Shown piece by piece: positions 42,006 through 58,088 of a DNA stretch of 64,000 nt. A program made the position numbers and the translations under genes. Under the pieces are notes generated by a model, which was not told where the DNA came from, made no database searches, and was given only the letters and a program-made list of their open reading frames with translations. This DNA comes from Oscillospiraceae bacterium. GTDB taxonomy: Bacteria; Bacillota; Clostridia; Oscillospirales; Oscillospiraceae. Each line of letters begins with the position of its first letter. Within the stretch, counting starts at the first letter, position 1. The DNA lies in the NCBI GenBank assembly GCA_902793285.1, contig CADBCV010000004.1, forward strand, positions 95,138 to 159,137. Direction: 5' to 3'.

Positions 42006-42114
42006 TCACGCTAATTCAAAAGATAGTCAAAAGATAGCTACTCAATGCGAAGCATTGAAAACACTGGCTTTTATATTGATCCACAGCAAAACTTGAGATC
42101 ATTCCAAAAGATAG

Positions 42115-42222
42115 TCAAAACTTATCATGCGTGGCATCATGCATGGTATCTTGGTGACCACCATCCATGATGTAAGCGGTATCGCGCTTCGCTCTTTCAA
42201 AAACAATGTACTTTCCATGTGT
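42115..42222 (-). pseudogene. Short conserved-looking fragment directly after brxA
   Basis: Directly after the brxA stop and in the same frame, about 35 codons read GKYIVFERAKRDTAYIMDGG, then HQDTMHDATHDKF and a stop. There is no start codon or ribosome site of its own. It looks like a protein remnant, but I cannot name the family. Either it is a relic fused behind brxA, or brxA once extended further. Confidence 0.4.
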
Positions 42223-42927
42223 TTAACCAACAACGACTGGATTGCCCCCAAAACTACCGAGTTCAAAAGACTGGGAACCAAACACAATATCAGAAGAAGC
42301 TTCATAATCAAAAGGAAACATCTGCGCAACTGACGCTAATTCAGCCGGCTCGTAGTATGGTTTTATTTTCAACGCGAGTATTGTTTTCATCAAAATGATT
42401 CTTGTCTGTTCGTCCGTCATAAAGTAATGGTTTACAGTGTAAACTCCAGCCTTTGAATTTACAGCTCCTAATTGGCGAATTGTTTGCATTATTTTATCAA
42501 GCGAATGGACCATGGTCGTGCGTTCGCCCCACTGCTCATATATTTTTTCTTTAAGCCAGCTAAGTGTGAAAGCATCCTGCATAGAAGACAGTTTTCCAAT
42601 CGTGCCTGTCACATCAACAAACACTGGATAATATAAGAGAAACATGCACCAATGAAACGCCATTCTATCTGTGTTTCCACCGCGAATAGCTTCAAGAGCT
42701 TTAATTCGGATATTGTTGCTTGCTTCGTCGTCAAAAGGATGTACCCAAAGATTCATCAGAATATCGCTTGACTTGCGAATATTATCCTGACTATTTAGTT
42801 CAAAGGAAATATACTCCCGCAGAGTTTTTTTTATATCTTCCGGGTTCATCCCTTCTAGTACCATATCAACGGTTTTGTCTAACCACTCCTGTTTTATTGC
42901 CCGTGACAATCCTATCATTTTAGCCAT
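42223..42927 (-). CDS. brxA: BrxA-like protein (last gene of the BREX operon)
   Basis: Protein of 234 residues, mostly helical, starting SRAIKQEWLDKTVDMVLEG, with a middle WCMFLLYYPVFVDVTGTIGK and a final VYTVNHYFMTDEQTRIILMK. Position after pglZ and size fit BrxA (DUF1819), a DNA-binding BREX component; sequence marks of that family are weak to the eye, so the call rests partly on context. It overlaps pglZ by 8 bases. Confidence 0.6.
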   Translation of the reverse strand: MAKMIGLSRAIKQEWLDKTVDMVLEGMNPEDIKKTLREYISFELNSQDNIRKSSDILMNLWVHPFDDEASNNIRIKALEAIRGGNTDRMAFHWCMFLLYYPVFVDVTGTIGKLSSMQDAFTLSWLKEKIYEQWGERTTMVHSLDKIMQTIRQLGAVNSKAGVYTVNHYFMTDEQTRIILMKTILALKIKPYYEPAELASVAQMFPFDYEASSDIVFGSQSFELGSFGGNPVVVG

Positions 42928-44368
42928 TCTTTTTCCTCACTTCCACGAATGGGACAACAACCTCTTCAAGAGAAATCCCTCCATGCGTCATAACAATTTC
43001 GTTTTTATTGTCGAATGAAGTCCTTCCCTTACAGATTCTGTATTGAAATTTTCGATCACAGTAATATCCGGGATAAACAAATGTTCTGGTAGCAAGTTCA
43101 TCGGACACATCGGCAAAATCTTTAAGCACAATCATTCGTCTGGACTTTGTTTCTGTCTCGACTCCTGTACGTTTGATCCCGCCGCCGCCAGTGCAAAGTG
43201 TATTTCCATGATCTGCTGTCAGATAGACCTTGAAACCGCGTTGGAGCAGGCTATCTATAAGCCGCAATAGTTTTCCCTCTTTGGCCCAGAGATTGACATC
43301 CTGATACATTCCAAGACGTCCTTGCTTTTGGCCGTGCACCATATCGTCTATATCATTAACTATTATTGCCGCAAATCGGGTGAAAACATCCGGCTGTTTG
43401 TTGTATCCACGGCTATACCATATTTCCTTTTTGTTAAAGCCGTGTTCCTGTGCGGCTGCATAAAAGCCGCTTTCCTCCTTTGTCAGCGTAAAAGGAGATT
43501 CAAGTTGCTGCGGGTATTTTCCAGATAACAAACTTTGTCTCGATATGCTTGTAATTGTTGGGATTAACGCAAAAGAAGCACCAAAAGAATAATCGTAATC
43601 TGTCATATAATCCGACAGAATTTCAAAGTCAAACATTGACATGCCGTCTGCCACGAGTAATGCAATTTTTTCTCCTGTAGCTATTCTACCTATTACATCG
43701 CGCAGCATTACAGGGGCTTCACTTGATACTGCATGGGAAAGCTTGCCATATCTTGAAAAAATGAAAGAGGAAAAAGCCTCGTCAATAAAGCTTTGATCGC
43801 GCTGAATACTATAGAGGCAGGCATATTTCTCAAGCTTTGCATTCTCTTTGGCGATATTTATCCATTCCGAAAACACCAGGTCACTTTTCAGCTTTTCAGC
43901 AATTTTTGCCTCGGATGCAGCAATAAACTCTCTGACGTTTTGCTCGCCAAATGTGACATTCTGAAGGAAATGTGCTGTCTCCTCTTTTAAAAGGCAGCGC
44001 TGTTCAAATTCGTCGTACGAGAAATCTATCAGCTCAATATCTCGAAAGTGTACTTTAAGAATGTCCGCATCCATTCGTGGATAAAGGTTTGTAAGAGAAA
44101 GCTCAATCTCGCAAAAGTTCCGGCGAATATCTGTTGGAACATAGAGATGAGCTGTTACGATAATAGCGCACGGCGTCTTCGTATATCGCATCTCTGTTTC
44201 ATATTTGTACCTGATACGTTCTATATCGTCATAGAAATAGACGCTGAAATCGTTGGTACGCAATAGAGATACATAATCGACGCAGGACGATATGTTCTCA
44301 AAATCAAAGATCATGAGCCGCTTTTCATATTCAGTTTGTAAAAGCCTGCGTACTCTGTCTGCGATCAT
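42920..44368 (-). CDS. pglZ: PglZ, alkaline-phosphatase-superfamily BREX protein
   Basis: Protein of 482 residues. The PglZ domain starts with IALLVADGMSMFDFEILSDY (metal-binding Asp and the nucleophile region), then ALIPTITSISRQSLLSGKYP, and YLTADHGNTLCTGGGGIK with the second metal site. It ends with a beta segment VMTHGGISLEEVVVPFVEV, typical of the superfamily. It is shorter than most PglZ proteins. PglZ is the signature gene of BREX phage resistance. It lies 3 bp after the helicase gene. Confidence 0.93.
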   Translation of the reverse strand: MIADRVRRLLQTEYEKRLMIFDFENISSCVDYVSLLRTNDFSVYFYDDIERIRYKYETEMRYTKTPCAIIVTAHLYVPTDIRRNFCEIELSLTNLYPRMDADILKVHFRDIELIDFSYDEFEQRCLLKEETAHFLQNVTFGEQNVREFIAASEAKIAEKLKSDLVFSEWINIAKENAKLEKYACLYSIQRDQSFIDEAFSSFIFSRYGKLSHAVSSEAPVMLRDVIGRIATGEKIALLVADGMSMFDFEILSDYMTDYDYSFGASFALIPTITSISRQSLLSGKYPQQLESPFTLTKEESGFYAAAQEHGFNKKEIWYSRGYNKQPDVFTRFAAIIVNDIDDMVHGQKQGRLGMYQDVNLWAKEGKLLRLIDSLLQRGFKVYLTADHGNTLCTGGGGIKRTGVETETKSRRMIVLKDFADVSDELATRTFVYPGYYCDRKFQYRICKGRTSFDNKNEIVMTHGGISLEEVVVPFVEVRKKNG

Positions 44369-44371
44369 ATT

Positions 44372-47041
44372 TCACTCCATGCGTATCAGCAATTCCAAAT
44401 GGAAGTCAGGACAAAGCTGCTTATCCAGAAGATATTGTGCTTCCACGTCTTCTTTTTCTTGAATCAAGGATTTAAGCTTATGATTCCGAATGTTCGCTAT
44501 ACCGATACGATCTGCTGCCTCGAATCGGAGGGATAGTGCATAGCTATATTTTGTATGGTTTTCCTCTATTCGGCGATTATAGTCAGTGCACATCTCATGA
44601 AATGTATCGTAAGCATATTCTTGTGATGCCTCTTTTAGTTTCGCAAGCTGTAATGATTCGATAGGAGCGTATGGCGTGGCGGTTATGACGTTTGTTTCGT
44701 CCAGAAGTGCATTCCAAATACGTTTTCCCGCTAACGGTCGGAGGATACCTGCGTCATTGATAAAAACAGGTAGTGTTTTTCCACCGCTGCCATTCGCTGA
44801 AACTGACAAATGCCAGAGCATGAACCAGCCTTTTTCTCCAGTAAAATGTTGAATACTAACACATAGTAGCTCCGTCTGAACATCCTGATGGATTTCCTGC
44901 CGAAGATGCCTGATGATTCGTTCATCATTGATACTATATGTATCCAACGGAAGGACGGGATTACCACGAGAACTCTCATACCAAGCCATCATTGCTCGAA
45001 GCGCTGAGTCTATATCAAACGAGGTATCCGCTCCGACCAGGCTGGTCAGATCCTTTTCTTCACGTATCAAGTCTTTAACACGAAGGGTATTCCGTACCTG
45101 CGTTCTAAGGTCTTCCTCTACAGGTTGAATATTATAGTTAATATTTTGGGGGCTGCGAATTGATTTCAAATAGGCGTCGGTAAAGTTGACCCCTGCCGTC
45201 TCACTGTCCAGAACGTCAGCATATTTATCAATGCCGATCTCTTTTAGAATAACAGATAACTTTTCCTCAAGAACATCCTTCACACGGCTTTCCACTGTGT
45301 CAGCAAGGATGAAGTTATAGACCTCTACATCCCGTTGCTGCCCAATACGATCTACGCGTCCGATGCGCTGCTCAATTTTCATGGGATTCCAAGGCAAATC
45401 GTAATTAATGATACAATTGGAAAACTGGAGGTTCAAGCCCTCGCCGCCGGCATCCGTCGAAATCAAAATGTTTGTCTTATCACGAAATTCAGCCAAAACA
45501 GCATTTCTTTCTTCAATAGCGAGGCTGCCATTGAGAAGCGAGGTGGAATACCCACGTCCGATAAGCAATTTACTCAAATACTGCTGTGTTGCTACGAACT
45601 CGGTAAAAATAATCAGTTTTCGGTTGCGATCCTCTCCGAACAGTTTCTCTACAATCTCCAACAGAGGCTCAATCTTTACATCCAAGTACTGATATTCCGC
45701 CTGTTGGGCTACATTGACAATCTGGTTCAGCTCTTTGATCTCTTCTTTGATATCCAACGAGAACGCGGTAATTGCGTCGTCGAGACTCTCTTCCATATCA
45801 AGCTCTGCAAATTCAGCTTCGGTCATAGACTTAAACCGAAAGGCCTGTGCTTCGAGAATCTGGATTCGCTTCTGTAGGCTCTGCCGAACTGCGGTAGTAC
45901 TGCTGGTGACCAATCGCTGCATCATAATAAGCAGAAAGACAATCCACATGTTTTTGCCGCGATTGCGCATGGCCTTGTTGTAATTTTTAGCAACATATTC
46001 AGATACCATCTCATAGAGCTTGCGCTGCATGGAATGTCGCTGATCCCAGTGCAGTTCTACGATATGGGTATTCCGTTTCTTGAAAAGCGGCTCGCCATTG
46101 TTATCAATGGCCTCCCGCTTTTCTGTCCGGATGACATAGGGGGCAACCTGCTCCTTAACGACAGCCTTCATATTGGGGAAAGCTTTCTCATCCACCAGCC
46201 GGATCAGCCGCAAAAATGGCTCTGTTTTACCGTTATGCGGGGTAGCAGTCAGCAGCAACAGATATGGGCTCGCCGCAGCAAGCAGATTTCCCAGCTTGTA
46301 ACGGGCTACCTCTCCAGTGGACCCTGCAACACGGTGGGCTTCATCAATAATGATTAGGTCCCAGCCGCTGTTGATGATGGAATAAATACGCTCTTCATTG
46401 TATTTCTCGATCTGATCCTCTGACCATCCAGTGCGCTTTTCCAAAGGTTTAATGGAATCCATTGGGGAGATAACCTGATCGAACTGGCCATAGACATCAT
46501 CGTGATCGGTGATTTTTCGGATGGTATTATATTCTTCCGGCAAGATAATGTGAAACTTCTCCCCAAACTTCTCCTGCATCTCCAAGTTCCACTGCGTGAC
46601 CAGGCCGGTCGGGCATACCACCAAAATTCGGCTTATCAGGCCACGGGCCTTTAACTCCTTAATAATAAGCCCTGCTTCAATAGTTTTACCAAGGCCGACC
46701 TCGTCAGCAAGAATGTAGCGGATATTGTTGTTACTGACGGCACGATTTAACACATGAAGCTGATGCGGCAGCGGAATAATCCCGCTGGAGAGTTTGGAAA
46801 GAGTTCCCTCGGAGACTTCGCTTTTGATTTTTGCAAGCATGGCAATATAGCGCACGGTGTATTCATTGGCATGGTTTTCCCGCGTTTCTGCTTCCACAGC
46901 GTCAGCAGAGAGCTTGTACACTGCGCCGGTAACCGGGTCGAAGACCTTATAGGTCACGAAACCCCAGACCGTGGTGATATCCACGATCTGGACCCGTTCT
47001 TTTCTGTTTATATCAAAAACAAAATCTCCAATATTGAACAT
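44372..47041 (-). CDS. brxHII: SNF2/HepA-type helicase of the BREX-3 kind (BrxHII)
   Basis: Protein of 889 residues with an N-terminal small beta domain and a complete superfamily 2 core: YILADEVGLGKTIEAGLIIK (motif I), IIIDEAHRVAG (II), LLLTATPHNGKTEPFLRLI (III), ISTDAGGEGLNLQFSNCII (V) and QRIGRVDRIGQQRDVEVYNF (VI). It resembles RapA/HepA and the helicase of BREX type 3. The ATG at 47041 is preferred over an upstream TTG because GGAG lies 6 bases before it. It sits 14 bp after the kinase gene. Confidence 0.9.
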   Translation of the reverse strand: MFNIGDFVFDINRKERVQIVDITTVWGFVTYKVFDPVTGAVYKLSADAVEAETRENHANEYTVRYIAMLAKIKSEVSEGTLSKLSSGIIPLPHQLHVLNRAVSNNNIRYILADEVGLGKTIEAGLIIKELKARGLISRILVVCPTGLVTQWNLEMQEKFGEKFHIILPEEYNTIRKITDHDDVYGQFDQVISPMDSIKPLEKRTGWSEDQIEKYNEERIYSIINSGWDLIIIDEAHRVAGSTGEVARYKLGNLLAAASPYLLLLTATPHNGKTEPFLRLIRLVDEKAFPNMKAVVKEQVAPYVIRTEKREAIDNNGEPLFKKRNTHIVELHWDQRHSMQRKLYEMVSEYVAKNYNKAMRNRGKNMWIVFLLIMMQRLVTSSTTAVRQSLQKRIQILEAQAFRFKSMTEAEFAELDMEESLDDAITAFSLDIKEEIKELNQIVNVAQQAEYQYLDVKIEPLLEIVEKLFGEDRNRKLIIFTEFVATQQYLSKLLIGRGYSTSLLNGSLAIEERNAVLAEFRDKTNILISTDAGGEGLNLQFSNCIINYDLPWNPMKIEQRIGRVDRIGQQRDVEVYNFILADTVESRVKDVLEEKLSVILKEIGIDKYADVLDSETAGVNFTDAYLKSIRSPQNINYNIQPVEEDLRTQVRNTLRVKDLIREEKDLTSLVGADTSFDIDSALRAMMAWYESSRGNPVLPLDTYSINDERIIRHLRQEIHQDVQTELLCVSIQHFTGEKGWFMLWHLSVSANGSGGKTLPVFINDAGILRPLAGKRIWNALLDETNVITATPYAPIESLQLAKLKEASQEYAYDTFHEMCTDYNRRIEENHTKYSYALSLRFEAADRIGIANIRNHKLKSLIQEKEDVEAQYLLDKQLCPDFHLELLIRME

Positions 47042-47055
47042 AATAAACTCCAATG

Positions 47056-48315
47056 TTAATTAAATGCTTTCAAAGCTTCCCGTATTTCGTTTTCCTTTTT
47101 CATTCGTTTTATTTCTTCTCTGATTCTGCTGTCTTCAGCTTCTTTTTCTTGCTGATTTCTGCGTAGAATCTGCTTATTATATTCTGTTGTTGCCGCAGGA
47201 AGCCACGTTTTTACATGCCCAAGAATTTGTTTCATTGTGTTAGTGTCGGCATTACGAACAATCATTGCCAATATATTGTTGCCCATTTTTTCAAGATGTC
47301 GAGGATCATAGCCCGGAATATATGAGCGCATATATGTACCGAAACGCAAACAATCAAGCCAAGCAGGATCGTCAGGAAAAACATCTAAGTGCATGATGAG
47401 CCTTCCACTATCGTAGCCAACGTTTATAATTTTCGGTGCTTCAATAATGCCAGATTTCAAATCGATATTTGATTGTTCCGCTGCGAGTTCTCGTAGTTTC
47501 TGCGCATTTTCTGCTTCCTTCTGTAAAGCAAGTATCTCAAATGCGATCTTTTCTACCGGGAACACCCTGTCCTGCGGGTTTTGGCAAATCATCCTGGAGA
47601 CAATCTCATCCAAATATGCATATTTACCATTAACATTTGCGATTGTTTGATAGTTAACTCCAGAAATGATAGTCCTTGTGAACATTTCATTCAGAATAAG
47701 GCCCAAAGAGAATATATCAGCTCGGCCATCAACAGTTTGTCCACGGTTTCTCTGCTCTGGCGCCGCATACTGGAAATTGGCAAGGCGGTCATGCTTTGCT
47801 GTCTCTACAAATGTCGCTAATTCCTCTTCGCAGAAATGAGCAATTCCAAAATCGGCAATGACAGCATGCCCTTGTTCATCAATGAGGATGTTCTCCGGCT
47901 TTATATCCCGGTGCCAAACACCTTTCTGATGAGCAAATTTCAATCCCTCTGCAATCTCCGAAAATAACACCAATGCGCGATCCCCGGAAATGCCAGTATT
48001 GATCAAATCCCTTAGTGTATTCGGATAGTACGGCATTATGTAAAAAACGAGATCATCTGAATCCGAAGTGTATGTTCCGCTGTCCAGAACAGATACGATG
48101 CAAGGATGATGGTTATTACTACAAAATGCAATTTCATTGTGAAATCTCTTCAGCTTTTCCTTTGATGTTTTTGTACGATCAATTGCTTTCAGCGCATATA
48201 CCGTACTCGAGTCATCGTTCACTTTAAAGATTGCGCCATTTCCGCCTTGGTTTACCTGGTTTTGGACAACGTACTCATTTGAAATGGTTTTAACAATTGT
48301 ACCTTTCTTCAGCAT
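47056..48315 (-). CDS. Ser/Thr protein kinase embedded in the BREX operon
   Basis: Protein of 419 residues with an intact Hanks-type kinase domain (1-270): glycine loop NQGGNGAIFKV, Lys43 in ALKAID, HRDIKPENIL with Asp137, DFGIAHF with Asp155, and APEQRNRGQTVDGRADIFSLG. The C-terminal ~150 residues are not a standard sensor; they end in a charged coiled coil (NQQEKEAEDSRIREEIKRM). PglW kinases mark BREX type 2, but this one is shorter and sits in a type 3 layout. GGAGG lies 8 bases before the ATG. It may sense phage or control the two small Ser-rich proteins upstream. Confidence 0.9.
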   Translation of the reverse strand: MLKKGTIVKTISNEYVVQNQVNQGGNGAIFKVNDDSSTVYALKAIDRTKTSKEKLKRFHNEIAFCSNNHHPCIVSVLDSGTYTSDSDDLVFYIMPYYPNTLRDLINTGISGDRALVLFSEIAEGLKFAHQKGVWHRDIKPENILIDEQGHAVIADFGIAHFCEEELATFVETAKHDRLANFQYAAPEQRNRGQTVDGRADIFSLGLILNEMFTRTIISGVNYQTIANVNGKYAYLDEIVSRMICQNPQDRVFPVEKIAFEILALQKEAENAQKLRELAAEQSNIDLKSGIIEAPKIINVGYDSGRLIMHLDVFPDDPAWLDCLRFGTYMRSYIPGYDPRHLEKMGNNILAMIVRNADTNTMKQILGHVKTWLPAATTEYNKQILRRNQQEKEAEDSRIREEIKRMKKENEIREALKAFN

Positions 48316-48345
48316 GGTAAAGGCCTCCGGAAAAACAACAATTAT

Positions 48346-48531
48346 TCACTTGCCACTGCTCTTATTGGATGCTTTTGTTCCATTATTGGAAAATAGTTGA
48401 ATGTTTAATGGCATGATAGGAACTGATACAGCCGACATTGGATTCTCAAATTGTGAGGCACTTGTTTCCTGCGTATCTTGCATATTAGAAGATAAAACCT
48501 TGTCGACTTTGGATGATTCATTTGTTTCCAT
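48346..48531 (-). CDS. Small Ser-rich protein between kinase and membrane protein (2 of 2)
   Basis: Sixty-one residues beginning METNESSKVDKVLSSNMQDT and continuing ETSASQFENPMSAVSVPIMP; it ends TKASNKSSGK. It is low-complexity, rich in Ser, Thr, Asn and Met. AGGAG lies 8 bases before the ATG at 48531, and the gene overlaps the end of the previous small frame, which supports real translation. It ends 30 bp before the kinase. Its many Ser/Thr residues make it a possible kinase substrate, but this is inference. Confidence 0.6.
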   Translation of the reverse strand: METNESSKVDKVLSSNMQDTQETSASQFENPMSAVSVPIMPLNIQLFSNNGTKASNKSSGK

Positions 48532-48664
48532 TTGGCGGTCTCCTAAAGTCAAGTTCTACACCATCCCTATGTGTGGTTGTTGGCATTGGTGGCGGCGCTG
48601 GTTGTTTCATGGGATTCGGTGATGTTGTTGAAGAAGAGCTTTCATTATTAGATTTTGCGCTCAT
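48518..48664 (-). CDS. Small Ser/Pro-rich protein (1 of 2)
   Basis: Forty-eight residues: MSAKSNNESSSSTTSPNPMK, QPAPPPMPTTTHRDGVEL, then DFRRPPNGNK. A disordered Ser/Thr/Pro tract with a more conserved-looking end. The ATG at 48664 is 21 bp after the membrane-protein stop, and the stop (48518) overlaps the start of the next small gene. The ribosome site is weak (TTGGGA), so coupling to the membrane protein is likely. Confidence 0.5.
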   Translation of the reverse strand: MSAKSNNESSSSTTSPNPMKQPAPPPMPTTTHRDGVELDFRRPPNGNK

Positions 48665-48685
48665 AAGTATATCCCAACCTTTTAT

Positions 48686-49255
48686 TTAATACAAAATAAA
48701 GAGACCAATAACATACCATAGTATTATCAGCCCAATTGTGAAAAAGAAGCATCCCATAGACCATCTGATCAGTAGTACCCGGGTATTATTTGCTTCGCTC
48801 AGGCTTACTTGAACATCCCCTACAACCTGTACCCACTGCTTTAATTGTGCGGCTTTTGATAATGTGTCTGAATATGTATCTGATACAAATTTCTCTATTT
48901 CTGGGATATTCATAAAAGTTTTTTTCAAAACGCGCCGTTGTGCAAGGGAAGCAAAAAGCAAACTTGCAAGCAGTGAAATAGTAATAGTAGATCCAGCCCA
49001 GAAGAAAAAGTCTAAGCTAACTTTTCCTCGATGTTCGATAAGGATCGGAAATACCATAAAGACCGCTGCTGTCATAAAAGAAAAAGCTGTCTGCATGTGA
49101 CTTGATTGCTGAATGAGAGAGTCCTCTCTACGAAGCTCAGACTCATATTTCAGTAACGAAATATCCTTGACATGAGAATAGAGGGCTTCTGCCTGCATTT
49201 CAAGTTCTTTAGGAGAAATGTCGGATGATTTTTCTTCAATCTCTTTCTTGTCCAT
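48686..49255 (-). CDS. Three-helix membrane protein in the BREX operon
   Basis: Protein of 189 residues. A charged N-terminal helical region (to ~55) is followed by a hydrophobic pair (FSFMTAAVFMVFPILIEH at about 58-75 and FFFWAGSTITISLLASLLFA at about 84-104), a cytoplasmic helical stretch (KAAQLKQWVQVVGDVQVSLS) and a last helix pair (CFFFTIGLIILWYVIGLFIL). The layout recalls SLATT-type and similar pore or effector proteins of defence systems, but no family is assigned. Only 3 bp separate it from pglX. Confidence 0.7.
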   Translation of the reverse strand: MDKKEIEEKSSDISPKELEMQAEALYSHVKDISLLKYESELRREDSLIQQSSHMQTAFSFMTAAVFMVFPILIEHRGKVSLDFFFWAGSTITISLLASLLFASLAQRRVLKKTFMNIPEIEKFVSDTYSDTLSKAAQLKQWVQVVGDVQVSLSEANNTRVLLIRWSMGCFFFTIGLIILWYVIGLFILY

Positions 49256-49258
49256 AAC

Positions 49259-51835
49259 TTATACTCTACCCAGGCTGATGTCGTAGTACATGAGCAGCTT
49301 GTCGTCTTCCTGAATGACCTGCTCGGGGAGGCGTTCGGCAGTTGTGACGATCAGTTTATAGTTTTTATCCTTCCAGAGTTTGGCGAAGCCCGCGCGGATG
49401 GCCTCGGAGCGGAAAAGCTTCAATTTGCCGCGCGTGGCAAGGTAACCGTCGAATTCCTTCAGCAGACTCTTTTCGCGGAGCTTGGCCATGTCCGCTTCCT
49501 TGGTGATGTCGGGGATATACCATTTGCCATCGAAGTTCTGTAAGAAGTTCTCTTCCAACAGGACCGAAAGTTCAGGCAATGCTTCAAACTTGTCGATGGA
49601 ACGAACCTCCTGCATAAATTTTGGCTGCAGCTCGGCATAGGTCTGGGGTGTGTCCAGTTGTGCATACAGCCAGGAGATGGCCGTTTTCTCATTGCTGACA
49701 ATAAAACTCATCTGCACATCTTCGAGATCGTTTTCAACGCGGGCCATGTCATACTCATTGACTTGCTCAGGGAGGAAGTACATCCCGTCGCGCTTGAGGA
49801 AATGTTCGTCCAAACCACGATAAAAGTCTGTCGCATCCAGAGGGACCGGAATTCCCTGCATAATGTGGTAGGCCACCATGCGGTCAAAGAGGAGGTAGGC
49901 CTGACGCTCAGCAAGGATGTCAATTTTGCCGTCTTTGTTGGCATCTACAACAACAGGGAGATTGGAGAGATGCTGCCGCACAAAGGCCCATGCGGTTTCC
50001 AGGGAGCCGGATTTGTCGAGAAACTCTCGTCTAAAGCTATCTTTGGGTTTATATGCAGAAATGACAAGATCTTGCTTGACAGCGCTTGTTGTAGTGACTT
50101 GCTTGAAACTGCCCTGTTTTTTATCTAGTGTGCGAACATCTGCAATAATAAACCCTGCCCGCTGTATTGCTTCTTGGATAGAATTCCAAACCGAATTTTG
50201 TGAATTGTGAAACTCAACTGTCATCCAATGATTTGGTTTTAAGACATTGTAATAGACTTGAAAGCAGCGAGTCATTAACGCCTGGTAATCAATCAGCTGT
50301 TTCCCTTGAGTATCACAGATAATAGCCTCTTCATTAGTTGCAGTAACTACTTTCAACCAGTCTTCCCACAAGAAATTTAATTGAGAATAGTTTAAATTAC
50401 CGCCGAACGGAGGATCAGTAAAAACATAGTCAATTGAGTTTGATGGGATGCCGTTTTGTGTTGTGAGGCTGTTGGTTGAAATACAGACTTTTCCTTGCTC
50501 AAACTTCTCAATAGTCATTGCTTCTGCAATGCTCTGAGCATTTCTCCTGATAGAAAGGACGGGGTTGGGCGGGGTCATTAAGGAAGAAACGTATAGAGTA
50601 CCTGAGAGAGGACCGCCGCCTTTTTTATCCGGGCGAAACCGCCTCATTTTTGACAGGTATTGGTTTGCGGCTGAATGAGCAAACATTATGTGATGGCCAA
50701 TGCATTTGTCATCTGCTTTAACCGCTTTGTCCCATATATATGCCATTTCTTTGATAGAACTGTCATGATAAAAGTGATGCGTATGCGTCATCCCAATTTG
50801 ATCATTGCGTCGACTTTCGCGGCCGATAGGCATTCTACTCGTAGGAAACCACTCTTCACATTTCGCTCTTTTCGCTCTCTCAATGGTTTCAAAATCCTTT
50901 TTATCAGGCGTCTTCTCATATCTGTGGGTTCCTATAGAATAACTGATTTTAACCGGCACCTGTTTTATTGGGCGAATCACCTCATCAATGTATGGGTCAT
51001 ATTCATCTTGAAATGCGTGTATACACTCACTTTTCTTAATCTTACTTCCACAGCAGGGACAAGTTAGAATCTCTCTGACTTTACATGCCTTCTCATCAAC
51101 TGCAACATCCCAGAACGAAAACTCAGATGAGCATTGAGGGCAAATAAACACATCGGACCAAAGAATATGATTGATTGTTCCGGTCAGTGGCTGCCCATCA
51201 ATTCCGAAGACGGGATTCCCATTTGCATCTACATGCTGAGTTTGATACATCCAGCCATATTTTTTTTCGCAGCCATCTAGTATTTCTCTTACTTGTTCAT
51301 CAAATGAGATATAATCTGCTGGATTGTTATAATTGTAGGCAATAAATGTTGCCATAGGAGAAAGGTCGCTCAGGATTGCTCGACGAGCGCCCCATTCAAT
51401 CTGATCTTCTTTCATTTCTGCGCTGATTTTCATCTTGAATGCGGGATCTGGGCAGCCACACATCTGTGCTGCTACGCCCGTCATTCCCGTACCACAAAAC
51501 CCATCTAAAACGATATCTCCGGGTTTCGTATAATGCAGGATATACCTCATGATAGCTTTATACGGGACTTTTGTGTGATAGCTGTGTGCATTATAAATAG
51601 GGTCGTTTTTCCCTTCACTCACATCGGCGGCAAAGGGCTCCCGGTGATAATCATCCGTAGCCTCGTCATAAGGAGTGCCGTTTTCCCGGATGAAATCCTC
51701 GATGAAGGGATTGGGGCAGGCGGTATAATAGGGGGCATCAGACAGCGCAATGATATCCTCATCCTTGCCGATGGGGAAGCCTTCGATATGGCGGACCTTG
51801 TCCAGATCCTCTTTGGTCAGTTTTCTGCGTTCCAT
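49259..51835 (-). CDS. pglX: BREX DNA methyltransferase (PglX type, BREX-3 form)
   Basis: Protein of 858 residues, predicted adenine-specific methylase that marks host DNA. SAM-binding motif I: GDIVLDGFCGTGMTGVAAQM; catalytic motif IV: YVFTDPPFGGNLNYSQL; in beta-class fashion motif IV is placed far from motif I. In between lie two Cys pairs (FICPQC, LTCPCC) that may form a zinc ribbon. The C-terminal ~250 residues (from FLKRDGMYFLPEQV) are a family-specific domain. The ATG at 51835 follows GGAGAAGAAAG. It lies 59 bp after the AlbA_2 gene. Confidence 0.9.
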   Translation of the reverse strand: MERRKLTKEDLDKVRHIEGFPIGKDEDIIALSDAPYYTACPNPFIEDFIRENGTPYDEATDDYHREPFAADVSEGKNDPIYNAHSYHTKVPYKAIMRYILHYTKPGDIVLDGFCGTGMTGVAAQMCGCPDPAFKMKISAEMKEDQIEWGARRAILSDLSPMATFIAYNYNNPADYISFDEQVREILDGCEKKYGWMYQTQHVDANGNPVFGIDGQPLTGTINHILWSDVFICPQCSSEFSFWDVAVDEKACKVREILTCPCCGSKIKKSECIHAFQDEYDPYIDEVIRPIKQVPVKISYSIGTHRYEKTPDKKDFETIERAKRAKCEEWFPTSRMPIGRESRRNDQIGMTHTHHFYHDSSIKEMAYIWDKAVKADDKCIGHHIMFAHSAANQYLSKMRRFRPDKKGGGPLSGTLYVSSLMTPPNPVLSIRRNAQSIAEAMTIEKFEQGKVCISTNSLTTQNGIPSNSIDYVFTDPPFGGNLNYSQLNFLWEDWLKVVTATNEEAIICDTQGKQLIDYQALMTRCFQVYYNVLKPNHWMTVEFHNSQNSVWNSIQEAIQRAGFIIADVRTLDKKQGSFKQVTTTSAVKQDLVISAYKPKDSFRREFLDKSGSLETAWAFVRQHLSNLPVVVDANKDGKIDILAERQAYLLFDRMVAYHIMQGIPVPLDATDFYRGLDEHFLKRDGMYFLPEQVNEYDMARVENDLEDVQMSFIVSNEKTAISWLYAQLDTPQTYAELQPKFMQEVRSIDKFEALPELSVLLEENFLQNFDGKWYIPDITKEADMAKLREKSLLKEFDGYLATRGKLKLFRSEAIRAGFAKLWKDKNYKLIVTTAERLPEQVIQEDDKLLMYYDISLGRV

Positions 51836-51847
51836 CTTTCTTCTCCT

Positions 51848-51894
51848 TTGATTGGATACGGATTGGTTAAAGATTGGTTAGAAGATTGGTTAAA
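51848..51894. repeat. Short GATTGGTTA tandem repeat before pglX
   Basis: GGATTGGTTA, AGATTGGTTA and AGATTGGTTA occur in a row between the AlbA_2 stop and the pglX ribosome site. The repeat could slip in copy number and so change spacing, but it is outside coding sequence. Confidence 0.55.
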
Positions 51895-53598
51895 TTATTT
51901 CGTCAATATCCAGTTAGCCAATCTTTTGTTTGGAGAATCCGTTGTGATCAACCCGTCATTTTTAAGGGCTTGAAGCAGATTCTTCACCTTGGACTCCTTC
52001 TTTTTTGCGTCCATTGTTGCCGGGAGTTTATCATCTAAGAGAACAAGGAATTCCCTTCTGGTTCCCTTGTGATAGGTCTCCAGATAGCTGATAATCCACT
52101 TCTTGTATGCTTCGTCGTCAAAACCTTTGTTCTTAACGTACTGGGCTTTCTCATCAATGCTTTCCGCTACCTTGGCAGAAATGTAGAGATTTGGGACCTT
52201 TCCTTCGACTACGCCCAGCTTTCGCAGGTATTTAACCGCATCCTTATTGATCGGCTCATGCTTCTGGACACGGTCAATCAGATAAACTGTGGTCAGATCA
52301 TAGCTGGGATTATCATACAAAACCCGTGTATAATTGAGATCCAGTATTTTCCCGTAAATGGTGACCTGAACCTGCCTTTTTGTAGAAAAGTCGTAGTCAG
52401 GAAGTGGGAAATATCGCTCCTGCTGGATTTTGAAAGCCCGTCTGATTCCCATGGTCTGCGTGTCAATCATGTTTAGCTTTACCATCGTCTCCGCCAAAAG
52501 CTGGTTGCGATAAAATGGTGGATTATAGCTGGGTTGGAGGATCGGTTCAATGCTGCCTGGCAGAAATGAGCCGGGATTCGTCAAGATCAGTTTATCTTCA
52601 AACTCGTTCAGATAAATGCGCCCGCCAATTGTGTAGTCTGAGTGAGCAATGCAGTTATTCATCAGCTCTCGAAGGAGCCATGTGTCATATTGTTTGATTT
52701 CATTGGGGAAAAGCGTCATCTGATTCGGCATATACCGATAGTTCAGATTGCGGATTTTTGCAAAGATCCTGTCGCTAACGGTGATATAGGGAATCTTAAA
52801 TATCTCGTAATCCTTGATTGCTTCAGAAGAATCATAGAGTCTCCATGACGCCTCCGGCGCAGCCGCAAACAGATAATCGAAATCCTCATTTCCGAGAAGG
52901 AGCATGGCTGCGTTGGTAAGCTTGCCGTTAATCATCAGCTTGAGCTTGGTCAGGAATTCAGCATCCGACATGCGGTCTACTTCTTCTGAAATATAGGGCC
53001 GATTCATTTTAAGTTTGTAGTTTTGCCGTGCCAACTGTATAGCCGCCTTATCAAGATGCGCCAAGGTCGCCCCTTCAACAAACTGTTTGGACCAATCCTT
53101 CTTTTCCTGCCCACGGATTCGATCATACTCTTCTGCTGAGAGTGCACCAAGAGATTCTCCGTTTCTGCCGTAAAAGTGATTCTTCCACCCTGTTGGAATA
53201 GCGGTTACGGCAGCGGGAATCTGAAACATGATGACCCGTTTCTTTTCACCCTCCACCACCGGATAAATCTCATATATCTCAATAAAAGAAATACTCCCTG
53301 TAGTTCCGGCAGCAATCTCCTGCTTCAAAGTTTCCAAGCCCTTGGTGTCACGATAGTCGGTGCCAAGGATCTGTTTATCCTTGTTTCGTACACCGAATAT
53401 TAGCCATCCGAACTGAATGCCCTTTAGATTCGCCTCATTGCTGATCGCAGAAAAATATTTTCCTATTTTTTCACGATCATAGTCGTTGTTGGCTTCTTTG
53501 AATTCCACGACCTCGTTTTCCCAATTGCCAATCAAATTATCCAACGTGGCCAGCAGGTCGTTCTGCTGGCTGTTCGGATCAGAATCGAAAAAGAACAT
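51895..53598 (-). CDS. AlbA_2/Schlafen-type ATP-binding protein in the BREX operon
   Basis: Protein of 567 residues. The N-terminal AlbA_2 (Schlafen core) domain has NEVVEFKEANNDYDREKIGK and GIQFGWLIFGVRNKDKQILG. The middle carries a GHKL-like ATPase part with LLRELMNNCIAHSDYTIGG and FEDKLILTNPGSFLPGSIE, then RNQLLAETMVKLNMIDTQTM. The C-terminus has winged-helix character and a final KNLLQALKNDGLIT. Such proteins occur as accessory genes in defence islands, including BREX-3. It follows brxC by 11 bp, so it is co-transcribed. Confidence 0.88.
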   Translation of the reverse strand: MFFFDSDPNSQQNDLLATLDNLIGNWENEVVEFKEANNDYDREKIGKYFSAISNEANLKGIQFGWLIFGVRNKDKQILGTDYRDTKGLETLKQEIAAGTTGSISFIEIYEIYPVVEGEKKRVIMFQIPAAVTAIPTGWKNHFYGRNGESLGALSAEEYDRIRGQEKKDWSKQFVEGATLAHLDKAAIQLARQNYKLKMNRPYISEEVDRMSDAEFLTKLKLMINGKLTNAAMLLLGNEDFDYLFAAAPEASWRLYDSSEAIKDYEIFKIPYITVSDRIFAKIRNLNYRYMPNQMTLFPNEIKQYDTWLLRELMNNCIAHSDYTIGGRIYLNEFEDKLILTNPGSFLPGSIEPILQPSYNPPFYRNQLLAETMVKLNMIDTQTMGIRRAFKIQQERYFPLPDYDFSTKRQVQVTIYGKILDLNYTRVLYDNPSYDLTTVYLIDRVQKHEPINKDAVKYLRKLGVVEGKVPNLYISAKVAESIDEKAQYVKNKGFDDEAYKKWIISYLETYHKGTRREFLVLLDDKLPATMDAKKKESKVKNLLQALKNDGLITTDSPNKRLANWILTK

Positions 53599-53609
53599 TC
53601 AGTACCTCC

Positions 53610-56600
53610 TCAGCGTTTGAGTACTATGCGTAATTTGTCCGCGTCTTTCCCCTGCGTATAATTTTGGAGAAGCTCGCTGATTTTATCCTTGAAAGTATCT
53701 ATATCACAGGGGCCAAGCGCGTCCAGCTTGTCCATGAATTCCTCAGCAGAAATGGCCACTGGCTCAAACCCTTCTAACAGCGCAGATACAGCATCAATAA
53801 AATACGTGTCAACTACATCCGGCAGCTTTCGAGTCTGGAGAAACTCTTTGATAACGGCGCGCTGCTGGGTTTTTAAATAAGACATCTGCTCTGCCAACCA
53901 TGGGTCGGATAGGGCGTTGTACAGTTTTTCCTCCCAGTCGCTTAGCAATGCATCCATTTTTTCTTCAATAGTGGTAAGAGCGCCTTGCACGACAGGATCA
54001 CCGCTGCCAAGCGTAAAGCCGCACTTGATGCACACATGGCTGGACTTTAACATGTCCGACGTAAGAGAATAACAGGGTTTAAGCCCGGATAACTCCGTAT
54101 CAATGGCATCCACCTTGGATGCAGAGAAAATGCTGAGATTCTTCAGTTTCTTTAGATTAGCAAGCTTTGTTGATGTAATCAAATCTCCCTTGCGCTGCGC
54201 GTCTAGAATACCAAGACGGCGCTTGCCGTGCTCTTCCATATAGATCTCGATATATTTTTCCTTAACCTTATCCAGAACGGATTTTACATCGGCTGCAGCT
54301 CCCTCACCATCTAGATCCTCCGGGATGGCGTCGCGGATCTCACGAAAGCTGTCTTTCGCATTTGCGAGAAGGTCCGCCAGAGAATCCAGCTCCATCTGGT
54401 CCAGATTCATCATGTAGCTTACATCCGCGGCAAGCTCATTGCGGAATGTATCATAAGCAAGCACAAGCTCAACATTCCGTATATCTTTCTCCAATTGATC
54501 GATTTCTTCTCTAGAATAGGTAAAGTTATTCAGTTTGGCTACGGTGTTAAAACGAGAGGGGAAATTGGAGAATACATCCAGAATATGCTTTCCAGAATCT
54601 TTGAAACCGGAAACGATATGGTCAGGAGCCAATGGTTCTCCCCAGAGTGTGAAGTCTCCACTCAGTTTGCTGGCCGCTTTGACCGCCGTGTTTACGGCAG
54701 CCTTGGTCTTTTCCTGCATAGAAATCAGTCCAGCTTCCCGGTTAGCCGGGTTGATGATCTGCCCAGTAGGGAGTCCAAGGACTTCAAACAGACGCACCAG
54801 TTCTGGCAGCTGAATATCCTTTGGCTTGGAAATATATTTGAAGGTCTGAAGGTCGCTTACATTGGGAACGATTTTTGCAATGTTCTCCAGATCAGATGCT
54901 GTAATGGTTTTGCCGCCGTCTATGGCAATAACTGCATTGCCCGTATGAACCATAGCCAGAAAAACCACTGGCATCAATGCATTGGAGAGCTTAAACCTCT
55001 TATCTACATAACCGTCATAAGTTTCTTCAAAAATGTCGCTGAAGTTGACAACATGACCGGCGGGCTGTTTGTTAAGCATGTCAATATAGTATTTGGCATA
55101 CTTAGAGCCTGCAACGGTAATCTTGTCATTGTCAATCAAGCCAAAGCTGTCCAGCAGCAAGTCGGCCATTTTCTCCTGCTTTCCGCCAAAGCGGTCGATG
55201 CCAGCCCGGATGATAGCCGCCTGATTATTCGCTGTGATCAGTGTTTTGAATTTGGGATACTCTGGATATTTTGCTGAAAAATAGTCATCCAGACATGTAG
55301 CCGCAGCCAAATCCATAATTTCCTTGAACGGCGTGGTGATCTTGCATTGGCCTTTCAATATTTCCACAAGAGTATGCTTCTCACCCCGATAGATCACATC
55401 GAAGCAAGTGCTTTTATTATTGCTCAGATACTTGGACAGCTTTGTGCGGTAACCTTCGGCCTTGGAAGCATAAGTCGGTTTATTTTTCTCCTCCGCCAGC
55501 TCCTGCATCATAAGTGCCGCTGCATAGAGCTTCAGGGTACTCTTAAATTCTTCATTATGGCGAAAGGCAAAGAAAACTTCATCCGATTTTTTCCCGTCCT
55601 GATAGCTGATGTCTCCATACGGAGGCAGGACATAGATATAGTAATCCTCTGGCGGCTGAGCTGTAGGACGGTTTTCAGGCGTTCCCAAGAACAAATACCC
55701 ATTTCGGAAAATGCTGTGAGAGGCCCAGTTGAGCATATGCTCGTAGATATTGAAGTTGGTTACTTTCTCCTGTGCATTCCATTCAAGGCACTTGTATACG
55801 ACCGTGAAGAAATAGCGGTTGAGCTGGTCGTCCTCAATCATGGCGGCCCGCTGCGTGATCTTCTCGTCGTAGTCGATATCCTTCTTCAGATCCAGGTAGT
55901 ATTGGCCGTTATCGTCGTTGTGCTCTACAAACTGGCCGGAAACCGTGGTCATGATGTCTTTCATAACCACGTACACTATGCCCTGCAAAGTCTCGGAGCT
56001 CTGATCCGGCATACCGTTAAGATAAAGGCAAAGATCATCTCGAAGGTCTTCTGTTGTCAAACCAGCCCGGATACTGATATCGCCGGTGGTCAGGCGGTGG
56101 ACGCTCAGTGCATATATGATTTTGATTGCCAACGGTTTATATAGCTTTTTAGGGAAGGAGTGTTGCAAGATGTCCTCCAGCTTGCCACTCTTGTCAATCA
56201 CTTCCTTGATATCCGCCTTAGAGCGAAGCGCGCTGTTGCTCTTGATAAAAGGCCAGTATGTGTCAAAGGAGATAATACAGGGAGCTTCTTCATCGACATC
56301 ATCGTTAAGTCTACTCTGAACGAGCTGGCTGATGCTCTTGAGAACCTCTCGATTCTCCACAGAAATCATTTTATTAAAAACTTCAATATAAGCCGGATGG
56401 ATCGGGAACAAATCTACATACTGTTCCAGGTTTTCAGCCATGTTGGAATAAAGACTGCAAAACTTCTGCAAATGCTGGCGTATCCATGCTTTTTGTTCGT
56501 CGTTCTTTTTCAGGATTCGTTCAGATACGACATAAGCGGTGTCCTGCTTCTGGATAATCATCTGCTCAAATCGCTTATGGACTTTATTCAAAGTATCGGA

Positions 56601-57292
56601 AACGAAAGAGAAATTGGGATTATCGAAGAGCTGCTCCTGGACACCGCATACTATACGGAAGCGGGAATTGGTACAAACTTCACCCAATTCGCGCAGAAAA
56701 CCGAAGTCAAGTTTTACTTCCTGCTCTTTTCTGCCGCCGAGATAATCCAACATCTCATCGATTACTACGAGGTAGCCTTTGTCTTCGCCGTATTTTCCGG
56801 CAAAGAGTACCATCATATCGTTGAGAATACCTTTGTTATTGACGATTTCATTTTGCGCCGGATAGGAAAAGTCAATTCCGCGTGCTTTGAAATCTTCTTT
56901 AATTTTACTGAGGATAATATCGCGCAGCGACATAGTAGATGCGCCGATTTCAATACGCAAGACTTCAAATTTGCCTGCGATTATTTCCGCGTCCTTGGCA
57001 AATTTTTGTTTTGCACCATGCTGAGATAACCTGCATCATGTGCAACTGCGGAAATGAGAGACATCAGGTGAGATTTACCTGTGCCATAGTTACCGACTAG
57101 CAGGATACCTTTGTTATCATTAAATTCTTCAAACTGGAGCTGGCCAATCATGTTATCAGCAATACGCTTCTCCATGTCATCAGACATGACATAGCTGCGT
57201 ACCAGTTTTTCTTCTTCAGATGTTTTATTGGCATCCGTCAATTGGATGACGGTGGTAATCGGATTAAAACTGATAAGCTGAGAGTATTTCAT
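53610..57292 (-). pseudogene. brxC: brxC/pglY ATPase split by a -1 frame change
   Basis: BrxC is the large P-loop ATPase of BREX. The first frame starts at 57292 (GGAGGAAGCAAG before ATG) and reads KYSQLISFNPITTVIQLTD with Walker A GNYGTGKS at residues 67-74; it stops at 56981 after KNLPRTRK. The correct continuation is in the -1 frame: AKDAEIIAGKFEVLRIEIGA and on for ~1115 more residues to 53610, including VVIDEMLDYLGGRKEQEV (Walker B). The joint is at 56999-57007. Full length would be about 1226 residues, normal for BrxC. Without a frameshift, neither part is a working ATPase. Confidence 0.88.
56999..57007 (-). promoter_or_regulatory. Slippery sequence at the brxC frame break
   Basis: On the coding (minus) strand the joint is AAC AAA AAT TTG CCA. 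It contains A AAT TTG, which fits the X XXY YYZ pattern for -1 slippage; one step back gives AAA TTT GCC and the correct BrxC frame. The A5-T3 tract is equally a place where single-base indels arise. No clear downstream pseudoknot was identified by eye. Confidence 0.6.
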
Positions 57293-57303
57293 CTTGCTTC
57301 CTC

Positions 57304-57750
57304 CTACCTGACAATTACAACTTGATTGTTCGCACAATCATATTCGTGATAATCTGGATTACCGAATTCTCCATATATAAGCTTTGAGAGGCTAACGCTG
57401 CCCGGCCATTTGACAATCAACGGATACTGTCGTGCCCGATCACAAAAGATTTTGAGGACGTCGATCTTATATCTGGGATCGAAAAGCATTTCAAAATCTG
57501 TCACTAAGATTAGTTCGGGCTTGGCCAACAGTTTATGCATTTCTTTTTCAACATATAAGGCGCGCTCTTCCGGCTTGTATTGCAATAATGCTTTTGAAAG
57601 CGATAAATTAACACGAAGTTCGTGATAACCAGCATCAGAAATTCTTTTCCATGTTCGAGAAGAGTTTGTACAAACGATTACAGGCATTCCTTTGGCAGAT
57701 CTGTAATAATCCGTTGTGACTGTTGGGGCTCTTAGTTCAATCGTCTTCAC
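57304..57750 (-). CDS. brxF: BrxF-like protein
   Basis: Protein of 148 residues just upstream of brxC (12-bp gap). It looks like a small NTPase-like fold: VIVCTNSSRTWKRISDAGYH where a P-loop would be (degenerate), then LILVTDFEMLFDPRYKIDVL resembling a Walker B strand, and YPLIVKWPGSVSLSKLIYGE. BrxF is the first gene of BREX type 3. The likely start is GTG at 57750, overlapping the regulator by 14 bases; an ATG 21 codons later is an alternative. Confidence 0.72.
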   Translation of the reverse strand: MKTIELRAPTVTTDYYRSAKGMPVIVCTNSSRTWKRISDAGYHELRVNLSLSKALLQYKPEERALYVEKEMHKLLAKPELILVTDFEMLFDPRYKIDVLKIFCDRARQYPLIVKWPGSVSLSKLIYGEFGNPDYHEYDCANNQVVIVR

Positions 57751-57961
57751 CCCCTACAGAATCCGGAACAATCTCCATGATGTCATCCATCTTGCAGCCG
57801 AGCCGATTACAAATCTTCACTAGGACATCGACACGAACAGATTCATTTTTGCCGAGTTTTGCCATTGCATTGGAGGAAATCCCGGCTTCTTCACGGAGCT
57901 TGGTTTTGTTGATGTTTTTATCAATCATCAGTTTCCACAGTTTGTTATAAGAAATTGACAT
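57737..57961 (-). CDS. XRE-family regulator heading the BREX operon
   Basis: Small helix-turn-helix protein of 74 residues: MSISYNKLWKLMIDKNINKT, then KLREEAGISSNAMAKLGKN with the recognition helix and LVKICNRLGCKMDDIMEIVP. Same class as the XRE protein at 32720. GAGGAGGAAAATTC precedes the ATG. It is the first gene after the promoter at 58014 and probably represses the whole operon. Confidence 0.85.
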   Translation of the reverse strand: MSISYNKLWKLMIDKNINKTKLREEAGISSNAMAKLGKNESVRVDVLVKICNRLGCKMDDIMEIVPDSVGGEDD

Positions 57962-58013
57962 GAATTTTCCTCCTCGTTGCAGAGCAAAAGCAGCCTAAAA
58001 TTTGACAATTATT

Positions 58014-58088
58014 ATTATACCCCAAAGCGCATCATTTTTCAACGAGTATCTCAAGAACTCAAAGAAATATCTCAAATGTCAACGAGTA
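58014..58088 (-). promoter_or_regulatory. BREX operon promoter with direct-repeat operators
   Basis: Minus strand: TTGAAA (58042-58037), 17 bp, TATAAT (58019-58014). Two direct repeats overlap and precede the -35: TACTCGTTGA at 58048-58039 and 58088-58079 (40 bp apart), and TTGAGATA at 58054-58047 and 58075-58068. They are the natural binding sites for the XRE protein. Confidence 0.75.

Follow-up and report, generated by a model that had tools for sequence, protein, structure and literature searches.

A type 3 BREX operon with probable exchangeable defence cargo in both junctions beside pglX

A 64,000-nucleotide stretch of DNA from an Oscillospiraceae bacterium (hereafter the window) carries, on its minus strand from position 57961 to 42223, an operon that is type 3 BREX by the match of its six core genes to BREX profiles, and we consider it probable that both of the junctions beside its pglX gene hold exchangeable defence cargo. 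What is new is the second block, a membrane protein, two microproteins and a Ser/Thr kinase between pglX and brxHII (cargo 2), together with its setting. This block is best read as a new membrane-protein/microprotein module, extended here by the kinase, with a function that is predicted. A further-reaching proposal, which we advance tentatively and as a possibility rather than an expectation, is that the membrane protein, along with two microproteins that bear an NPM motif, forms an undescribed anti-phage module wired to the kinase, and that the pglX-brxHII junction is a cassette site where entire defence systems (Kiwa, OLD-like proteins, PDC candidates, kinase-membrane modules) replace one another, the recognition part of PglX being exchanged as well, while the rest of the backbone stays near-identical.

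An earlier note on this DNA had described a type 3 BREX operon with two extra blocks; its genes, order, strand and coordinates were all correct, and both the core profiles and 47 neighbour operons agree with the description. All six core proteins matched BREX models: BrxF (57304..57750, minus strand, as are all operon features below; PADLOC 3e-20; NCBIfam BREX-3 BrxF 76 bits, cut-off 50), BrxC, PglXI (the methyltransferase, 49259..51835; PADLOC PglXI 1179.5 bits), the helicase BrxHII (44372..47053; SNF2-related domain 73 bits; PADLOC BrxHI/BrxHII 1004 bits), PglZ (42920..44368; NCBIfam BREX-3 PglZ 272.8 bits, cut-off 250) and BrxA (42223..42927; PADLOC BrxA 168 bits). The 1004-bit helicase model is named BrxHI/BrxHII and described as BrxHI, and a second model, described as BrxHII, gave 240.7 bits. 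PglXI has the four-cysteine motif, with CxxC at residues 232 and 259, and PglZ is a short form of 482 aa that is common to the nearest clade. DISARM, the placement that the earlier note had singled out as speaking against BREX, was rejected, the helicase reaching 361 bits against a DrmD cut-off of 610 (NF038317) and 229.7 against 950 (NF038318); among the PADLOC and NCBIfam matches listed for the other operon proteins there was no DISARM protein.

The first gene of the operon encodes a small helix-turn-helix regulator of the Cro/C1 type (57737..57961; HTH_26, 69.4 bits, cut-off 22), a homologue of which precedes brxF in L018, L022, L060, L061 and L070 (neighbour loci are given by L numbers). 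Ahead of the operon lies a promoter-like site, TTGAAA-17-TATAAT (58014..58042, minus strand; 11 of 12 consensus positions), as had been proposed, but its status as the sole promoter is not supported by a scan of 42000-58700, which found 36 promoter-like sites against 31.3 expected by chance. The 10-mer TACTCGTTGA is a candidate operator, present in two copies at 58039-58048, over the -35 element, and at 58079-58088; these are its only two matches in the window, a count that 0 of 100 shuffles reached, and it is absent from five relatives that possess the regulator.

Inserts were surveyed across the 47 neighbour operons, which are related and not independent loci, by scoring gaps of at least 200 nt between core genes, a threshold of our own choice. 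Such gaps were found in 5 of 45 brxC-pglX junctions, 12 of 35 pglX-brxHII junctions and 0 of 125 other junctions; pooled, 17 of the 80 pglX-flanking junctions and 0 of the 125 elsewhere have such a gap, which makes the pglX-adjacent rule a sharp one in the present sample at 200 nt. Gaps of 100-200 nt, wide enough to fit a microprotein, were present elsewhere (brxF-brxC in L063, L082 and L084; pglX-pglZ in L089). The neighbour loci were drawn from 41 of the 51 match rows outside the source genome (40 regions; 10 left out) and from 4 of 11 plasmid records, the contig-end fragment G338 was left out, and a search of genome contigs with a single PglX protein as query gave three loci. Left out of the junction count were L091, L094 and L096 (PglX truncated or in two pieces), L050 and L097 (3-kb contigs), and L026 and L028 (short contigs). 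The earlier note's term "expanded variant" holds in one sense, that of cargo in two recurrent slots beside pglX.

The pglX-brxHII slot of relatives contains Kiwa in L023 (KwaB 265.7 bits, KwaA 87.5), an OLD/GajA-like protein in L080, the PDC candidates PDC-S06 in L059, PDC-M34A in L083 and PDC-S19 in L085, an AlbA_2 protein, and others, and the brxC-pglX slot of L019 and L020 contains a HEPN-type gene accompanied by a small partner. A 100-aa gene in these last two loci was labelled a nucleotidyltransferase by reading its sequence and matches the PDC-S09 profile in L019 only. The labels Cmr (L075, L086) and REase (L075) also come from reading sequences and not from profiles. Three loci from three families, L022, L060 and L061, offer a natural comparison, in which most of the backbone DNA is 93-97% identical and most other BREX genes are nearly constant, while the middle part of PglX differs and the cargo is unrelated. 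Homologous recombination in the conserved flanks could swap the cargo, and cargo transcribed together with BREX might serve as a second layer of defence.

In the window, the brxC-pglX slot is filled by a single gene (cargo 1, 51895..53598) for a protein with the Pfam domains SLFN_AlbA_2 (50.1 bits, cut-off 25.3) and HATPase_c_4 (50.6 bits, cut-off 26), and no winged helix was listed for it in Pfam. Schlafen-HATPase-wHTH proteins have been linked to BREX and BREX-related systems in at least 1017 taxa (PMC12839542). Cargo 1 has the same AlbA_2 and HATPase domains and the same place within the operon, and compared by these two domains it showed no difference from those partners; by its domain content it is an already published kind of BREX partner. 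A relative in L024 occupies the other slot, between pglX and brxHII, with 55% identity over its first piece, and further relatives are found in L099 and L100 (21%); among solved structures there was no match at 0.01. The predicted role of this Schlafen-type protein is that of an abortive RNase.

Cargo 2 is packed into the operon a few bases from pglX and brxHII, and begins with a membrane protein (48686..49255) that has three membrane segments by hydropathy. It is followed by microprotein 1 (48518..48664; 48 aa, NPMK motif) and microprotein 2 (48346..48531; 61 aa, NPM motif), for which a start at ATG 48531 appears more likely than one at TTG 48552. Both microproteins are Ser/Thr-rich, and among the window's 341 open reading frames of 35-75 aa the letters NPM occur in exactly these two. 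Against its counterpart in another genome, microprotein 1 scored 66 (shuffled mean 23.8; blastp 1.6e-4) and microprotein 2 scored 64 (shuffled mean 27.4), with 0 of 2000 shuffles as high in either case, and on this conservation we take both to be real. The recurrence that the earlier note had proposed to look for was found in part: L061, the BREX operon of another family, carries in its pglX-brxHII slot the membrane protein (58-60% identity to the window's) together with both microproteins, but not the kinase, and the exact four-gene block was confined to the window among the loci searched. G+C content is.38-.44 in the genes of the block against.455-.457 in brxC, pglX and brxHII, a contrast that is weak evidence because brxF, pglZ and brxA likewise lie at.40-.42.

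The membrane protein family is rare, being present in 3 of 391 genomes when the class was searched and in 2 of 388 at the level of the phylum, with the source genome counted in both. Two relatives lie outside BREX, in G296 and, as a broken copy, in G281; the L007 protein, from outside BREX, has two segments, not three, at the same hydropathy threshold. A Ser/Thr-rich (27%) 63-aa reading frame after the L007 gene was rejected as an extra microprotein because its alignment to any of the four microproteins was no better than to shuffles. The window's membrane protein had no Pfam match above cut-off and none in PADLOC, NCBIfam or PHROGs at the limits used. Membership of 8xMP (PF24838) was rejected, with 17.9 bits for the L061 protein and 10.2 for that of L007 against a gathering cut-off of 30 and the window's copy not listed, and a paper search on 8xMP gave nothing on point. 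Searches with the membrane-protein alignment returned pattern matches and no relative in viral contigs and, up to E 5, no solved structure; the window and L007 proteins had no match in plasmids, nor the L061 protein in phages. The AlphaFold model was all helical (pLDDT 62.2) and too poor for use.

A small membrane protein adjoining very small soluble proteins, in an island that has other toxin-antitoxin genes, could also be a toxin-antitoxin-like set that serves the stability of the island and not phage defence. We consider this unlikely, given that other loci often have defence genes next to pglX and that no toxin-antitoxin profile rose above cut-off in Pfam, PADLOC or PHROGs. Were phage to trigger the set, this reading would overlap with that of a defence module.

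The last gene of cargo 2 encodes a Ser/Thr kinase of 419 aa (47056..48315; Pkinase 126 bits in Pfam) with a C-terminal part of its own, the final 150 aa matching the source genome alone among 398 searched. The catalytic motifs ALK, HRD, DFG and APE are all present, and the domains listed in Pfam are solely kinase-like. Type 2 BREX has a kinase as a core part (PMC12839542), and the earlier note had seen in this one a reminder of PglW and so a hybrid; with the tight packing of the block, this would make all four cargo 2 products working components that an expanded BREX requires in order to methylate or exclude. The hybrid was rejected because neither profile nor size makes the kinase a PglW: it reaches 41.6 bits with NF033442 against a cut-off of 990, over residues 52-213 only, within the generic kinase domain, and scores higher, yet still below their own cut-offs, with PASTA-kinase (137; 450) and MAD6 (114.2; 460). 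PglW has 1400-1600 aa, with a NERD nuclease, tandem kinases and DNA-binding domains (PMC12839542), and while both are Ser/Thr kinases in a BREX locus, no NERD, tandem kinase or DNA-binding domain was found in the present protein (Pfam, NCBIfam). Against a working part speak also the 23 of 35 testable pglX-brxHII junctions that are shorter than 200 nt, the 11 of 12 filled ones that hold something other than the membrane-protein/microprotein block, and L061, where the two kinase matches reported in the genome are 31% identical and lie outside the slot. We regard such an expanded machine as quite improbable.

The MADS kinase MAD6 was rejected as an identity by the score given above. Best matches among solved structures were PknB-type kinases, over the kinase domain, and the AlphaFold model (pLDDT 36.5) was too poor for use. 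Viral contigs gave pattern matches and no relative; plasmids gave none for the C-terminus and, for the whole kinase, 564 records, all below 60% identity and none with 80% query cover in one place.

BrxC was rightly placed among the core proteins (DUF6079 and PADLOC BrxC), but the single open frame assumed for its gene was not borne out. A frameshift near 57000 splits it into a first part of 118 aa that bears the Walker A motif (56981..57337; BrxC profile positions 1-99) and a remaining part in another frame (53610..56960; DUF6079 positions 112-1238, 1254 bits; PADLOC BrxC 1201), and four relatives have brxC as one continuous frame of 1229-1238 aa. The frameshift may be either a mutation or an error of the draft assembly, and BREX may be dead in this genome because of it, unless the break is such an error. 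The broken brxC and the state of the genome, a draft of 57 contigs that is 79.5% complete, would fit a cargo 2 block that has no present function, having entered a dead BREX by chance or decayed within it. This seems to us the least probable of the readings considered: the remaining operon genes are open, the kinase has kept its catalytic motifs, all cargo 2 products but the kinase are conserved as protein in another family, and a single frameshift in a draft assembly is possibly an error.

Under the preferred reading, that of a module carried as defence cargo, the membrane protein would be the likely effector, acting by membrane disruption or arrest, the two microproteins might partner it in the cytosol or hold it in check, and the kinase, an added switch, might act on these small proteins or on BREX. 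Of these steps that of the kinase is the least secure, because the L061 block has no kinase. If the reading is true, type 3 BREX operons become a catalogue, anything next to pglX being a possible defence module, and one concrete new candidate is the membrane protein with its two microproteins, which at 48 and 61 aa are easily overlooked.

The operon shares with type 3 BREX the six core genes, their order and strand, and a PglXI with two CxxC pairs, and differs in its two cargo blocks beside pglX, in a brxC that is frameshifted in the present assembly and in its short PglZ. With Kiwa, the occupant of the same slot in L023, cargo 2 has in common a membrane protein with a partner; identity of the window's membrane protein with KwaA was rejected, as it had no PADLOC match, and no KwaB was among the PADLOC matches listed for the operon proteins. 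Payne et al. have reportedly used "guilt-by-embedding" to find defences inside other defence systems, the PDC and HEC candidates. Cargo 2 resembles these as a candidate defence module inside a known system, and differs in having a membrane protein and microproteins for which PADLOC v2 gave no match at the limits used. In StySA, the type 1 BREX of Salmonella LT2, ATPase and DUF4435 genes lie between pglX and pglZ, the E. coli HS copy is without them, and their removal left methylation unaffected (PMC9009780). StySA likewise has an optional gene pair directly 3' of pglX in an otherwise conserved BREX, and differs in its BREX type and its cargo; because the pair has an equivalent place, the pglX-adjacent rule may hold across BREX types (PMC9009780).

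The BREX operon runs along the minus strand (57961 to 42223) in the order small HTH regulator, brxF, brxC, AlbA_2 (Schlafen-type) gene, pglXI, membrane-protein gene, two very small genes (microproteins 1 and 2), Ser/Thr kinase gene, brxHII, pglZ, and brxA, and every item of the gene list in an earlier note was correct. Profile matches assigned all six core genes to type 3 BREX; the proposed hybrid with type 2 was unsupported, and the alternative of an expanded type 3 system gained support from relatives that likewise carry extra genes, here termed cargo, beside pglX. PglZ is short (482 aa; 42920-44368), with its first ~150 residues outside the match to the BREX-3 PglZ profile, and it is under 520 aa in a further 14 of the 44 loci having a PglZ length, 13 of which fall inside the window’s 14-row tree clade. 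Overlooked previously was a frameshift in brxC near 57000 (56960-57337) that separates a first part of 118 aa, bearing the Walker A motif, from a remainder of 1116 aa. The parts align with consecutive stretches of one protein (57-61% and 47-63% identity, respectively), and brxC is a single continuous frame of 1229-1238 aa in four relatives (loci L018, L022, L060, and L061). The break may be a mutation or else an error of the draft assembly, which comprises 2.36 Mb in 57 contigs, is 79.5% complete, and supplies the window as the terminal stretch of a 159-kb contig.

Searches for PglXI gave matches in 9 of 391 class genomes (E up to 1e-50) and in 44 of 398 phylum genomes (E up to 1e-100), the source genome included in both, and 47 neighbour operons were readable (7 from the class, 1 from a named-genome scan, 35 from the phylum, and 4 from plasmids). 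With a gap of at least 200 nt between core genes as the threshold, such gaps were present at brxC|pglX in 5/45 operons and at pglX|brxHII in 12/35, and at none of the brxF|brxC (0/41), brxHII|pglZ (0/31), pglZ|brxA (0/42), or pglX|pglZ junctions without an intervening brxHII (0/11). This amounts to 17/80 beside pglX versus 0/125 at the other four junction kinds (Fisher p = 3.6e-8), in a count that treats related loci separately (L019 and L020 share genus and cargo; L099 and L100 are alike). Gaps of 100-200 nt were seen elsewhere, at brxF|brxC in L063, L082, and L084 and at pglX|pglZ in L089.

The contents of the two slots are diverse. Between brxC and pglX, L019 and L020 carry a HEPN-type gene (NTase_sub_bind/HepT-like; profiles run on L019 only) with a 100-aa partner, Roseomonas and Roseicitreum plasmids carry genes annotated as RNA-binding proteins (aligning at 21% with the window’s AlbA_2 protein), and L075 carries several genes that, read without profiles, resemble type III CRISPR parts. 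Between pglX and brxHII, profiles identified a Kiwa pair (KwaA, KwaB) in L023 (7410-8830), and other loci hold members of candidate defence families in PADLOC, namely PDC-S06 (L059), PDC-M34A with a small second gene (L083), and PDC-S19 with a 1421-aa protein (L085), as well as a weak Ppl-like match (L060), an OLD/GajA-like protein (L080), a membrane protein with microproteins (L061), an AlbA_2 gene split into two ORFs (L024), and genes without profile labels (L075, L086); profile searches gave no match for a 186-aa protein with a hydrophobic start (L022) or a 234-aa protein (L093). Both slots are occupied in the window’s operon, and over the first piece, its AlbA_2 protein shares 55% identity with that of L024, which sits in the other slot; related cargo can therefore occupy either slot.

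In a PglX tree of 48 rows, the window falls inside a 100/100 clade of 10 rows, six of which have cargo after pglX, of five kinds altogether. Three loci from different families (L022, L060, and L061; f50, f132, and f173) are 93-94% identical in DNA from upstream of the regulator into the start of pglX and 95-97% identical from 6-15 nt within brxHII through to where brxA ends, while PglX identity drops to 36-82% across residues 121-600 (60-residue blocks), returning to 93-98% at residues 601-840, and their cargo is mutually unrelated. Because the flanks are nearly identical while these segments differ, the PglX middle part and the cargo are two variable islands within one nearly constant operon. 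Over its final third, pglX is 83-93% identical in DNA (150-column blocks), below the likeness of brxHII. The near-identical backbone (93-97% over most of the DNA) was probably transferred recently from one distant host to another. G586, the genome of L061, and G474 each have an additional type 3 BREX (L069, L071).

The earlier note had asked whether the membrane protein-microprotein-kinase block recurs, and it does so in part: the membrane protein and both microproteins reappear in the same slot of L061, from another family of the same phylum, in the order pglX, membrane protein (190 aa), microproteins of 50 and 57 aa, brxHII, and the kinase does not in the genomes searched. The membrane proteins are 58-60% identical, and microproteins 1 and 2 align with their counterparts at scores of 66 (shuffled mean 23.8) and 64 (shuffled mean 27.4), each reached by 0/2000 shuffles. 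The L061 microproteins are also mutually alike (score 68, 0/2000 shuffles; common stretch NPMK.VQTT.IPTK), and the window’s pair more weakly so (score 37, 70/2000 shuffles). Among ORFs of 35-75 aa, the letters NPM occur in 2/341 from the window and 2/105 from L061, exactly the four microproteins, and in none from L022, L023, L059, or L060. Judged by these comparisons, both small genes are real. Ser+Thr content is 25-26% in the window’s microproteins, 20 and 16% in those of L061, and 10-16% in the five larger operon proteins measured.

The membrane protein was found in 3/391 class genomes (its own, G296 outside BREX, and G281 in pieces outside BREX), in 2/388 phylum genomes by profile search (its own and G586), in 1/3 genomes of the genus of G586 (G586 itself), and in 1/17 near relatives (its own). 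The C-terminal 150 aa of the kinase were found in 1/398 phylum genomes, its own; kinase matches in G586 and G296 lie on other contigs at 28-32% identity. Outside BREX, a membrane-protein relative at L007 (17227-17957) is directly followed by a 63-aa Ser/Thr-rich ORF that could not be aligned with the microproteins, and a broken relative at L008 (15769-17343) is the second gene behind a protein labelled TIR-like by eye.

G+C drops from 61-65% to 41-54% from about 30 kb onward, so the operon probably lies within an acquired island. This also holds an Apea-like HEPN protein (37002-37889, plus strand), and PhdYefM- and HicB-like antitoxins (30.4-31.8 kb) and a ParE-like toxin (61.9-62.2 kb) were detected. 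Just downstream of brxA, on the BREX strand, 38188-41568 encodes a radical SAM protein, a protein of 371 aa for which Pfam and PHROGs gave no match, and an ATPase of archaeal type (ATPase_2, DUF234); upstream, on the same strand, are sigma-70-like, HTH, and WYL/WCX proteins (58714-61590). Also upstream of the operon, perfect inverted repeats with 17- and 18-nt arms occupy 58108-58157 and 58158-58218, the former resembling a terminator in its hairpin and run of T. The 10-mer TACTCGTTGA, absent from five relatives, occurs twice, 40 nt apart (58039-58088), with one copy over the -35 box, and may be the operator of the small regulator.

The position, conservation, and exchange of the cargo are observed. 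A sequence scan places a promoter-like site ahead of the operon (58042-58014, minus strand), from which cargo would be co-transcribed with BREX, perhaps serving as a second defence layer, a published view for nuclease cargo (passages of PMC12839542). We regard the cargo reading as a whole as somewhat favoured. The membrane-microprotein module probably functions in defence: the membrane protein could be an effector at the membrane, restrained by or assembled with the microproteins, and these Ser/Thr-rich proteins would be plausible substrates of the kinase, whose catalytic motifs are intact. The full kinase-microprotein-membrane cascade is doubtful.

The membrane protein and microproteins had no Pfam family above cut-off and no PADLOC or PHROGs match at the limits used, and the membrane protein, run alone, had no NCBIfam match. 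A preprint by Payne et al. is reportedly the source for defences embedded in defence systems. Portions of three articles, all citing Payne et al., present such embedding as a principle (PMC12255303, PMC12988326, PMC10855318), with the examples of a type I restriction system containing DarTG2 and of Hma containing Septu (PMC12255303). Part of PMC12839542 describes a Schlafen-HATPase-wHTH partner in at least 1017 taxa and uses “kinase” with PglW, DndF, and a Schlafen fusion; “Kiwa”, “KwaA”, and “KwaB” are absent from its main text. No description of a pglX-adjacent slot was found, by title and abstract opening, in literature on Kiwa and BREX or on BREX/pglX cargo, recombination, or insertion sites. 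Given these literature and family-library results, embedded defence is a known concept, the slot rule did not turn up in that literature, and the membrane-microprotein module, contained in none of the family libraries searched, counts as a new candidate. Literature under the name 8xMP, a membrane-protein family, gave nothing on point. The type 1 BREX of Salmonella LT2, as described in sections of PMC9009780, has an ATPase and DUF4435 pair between pglX and pglZ that is missing from E. coli HS and dispensable for methylation.
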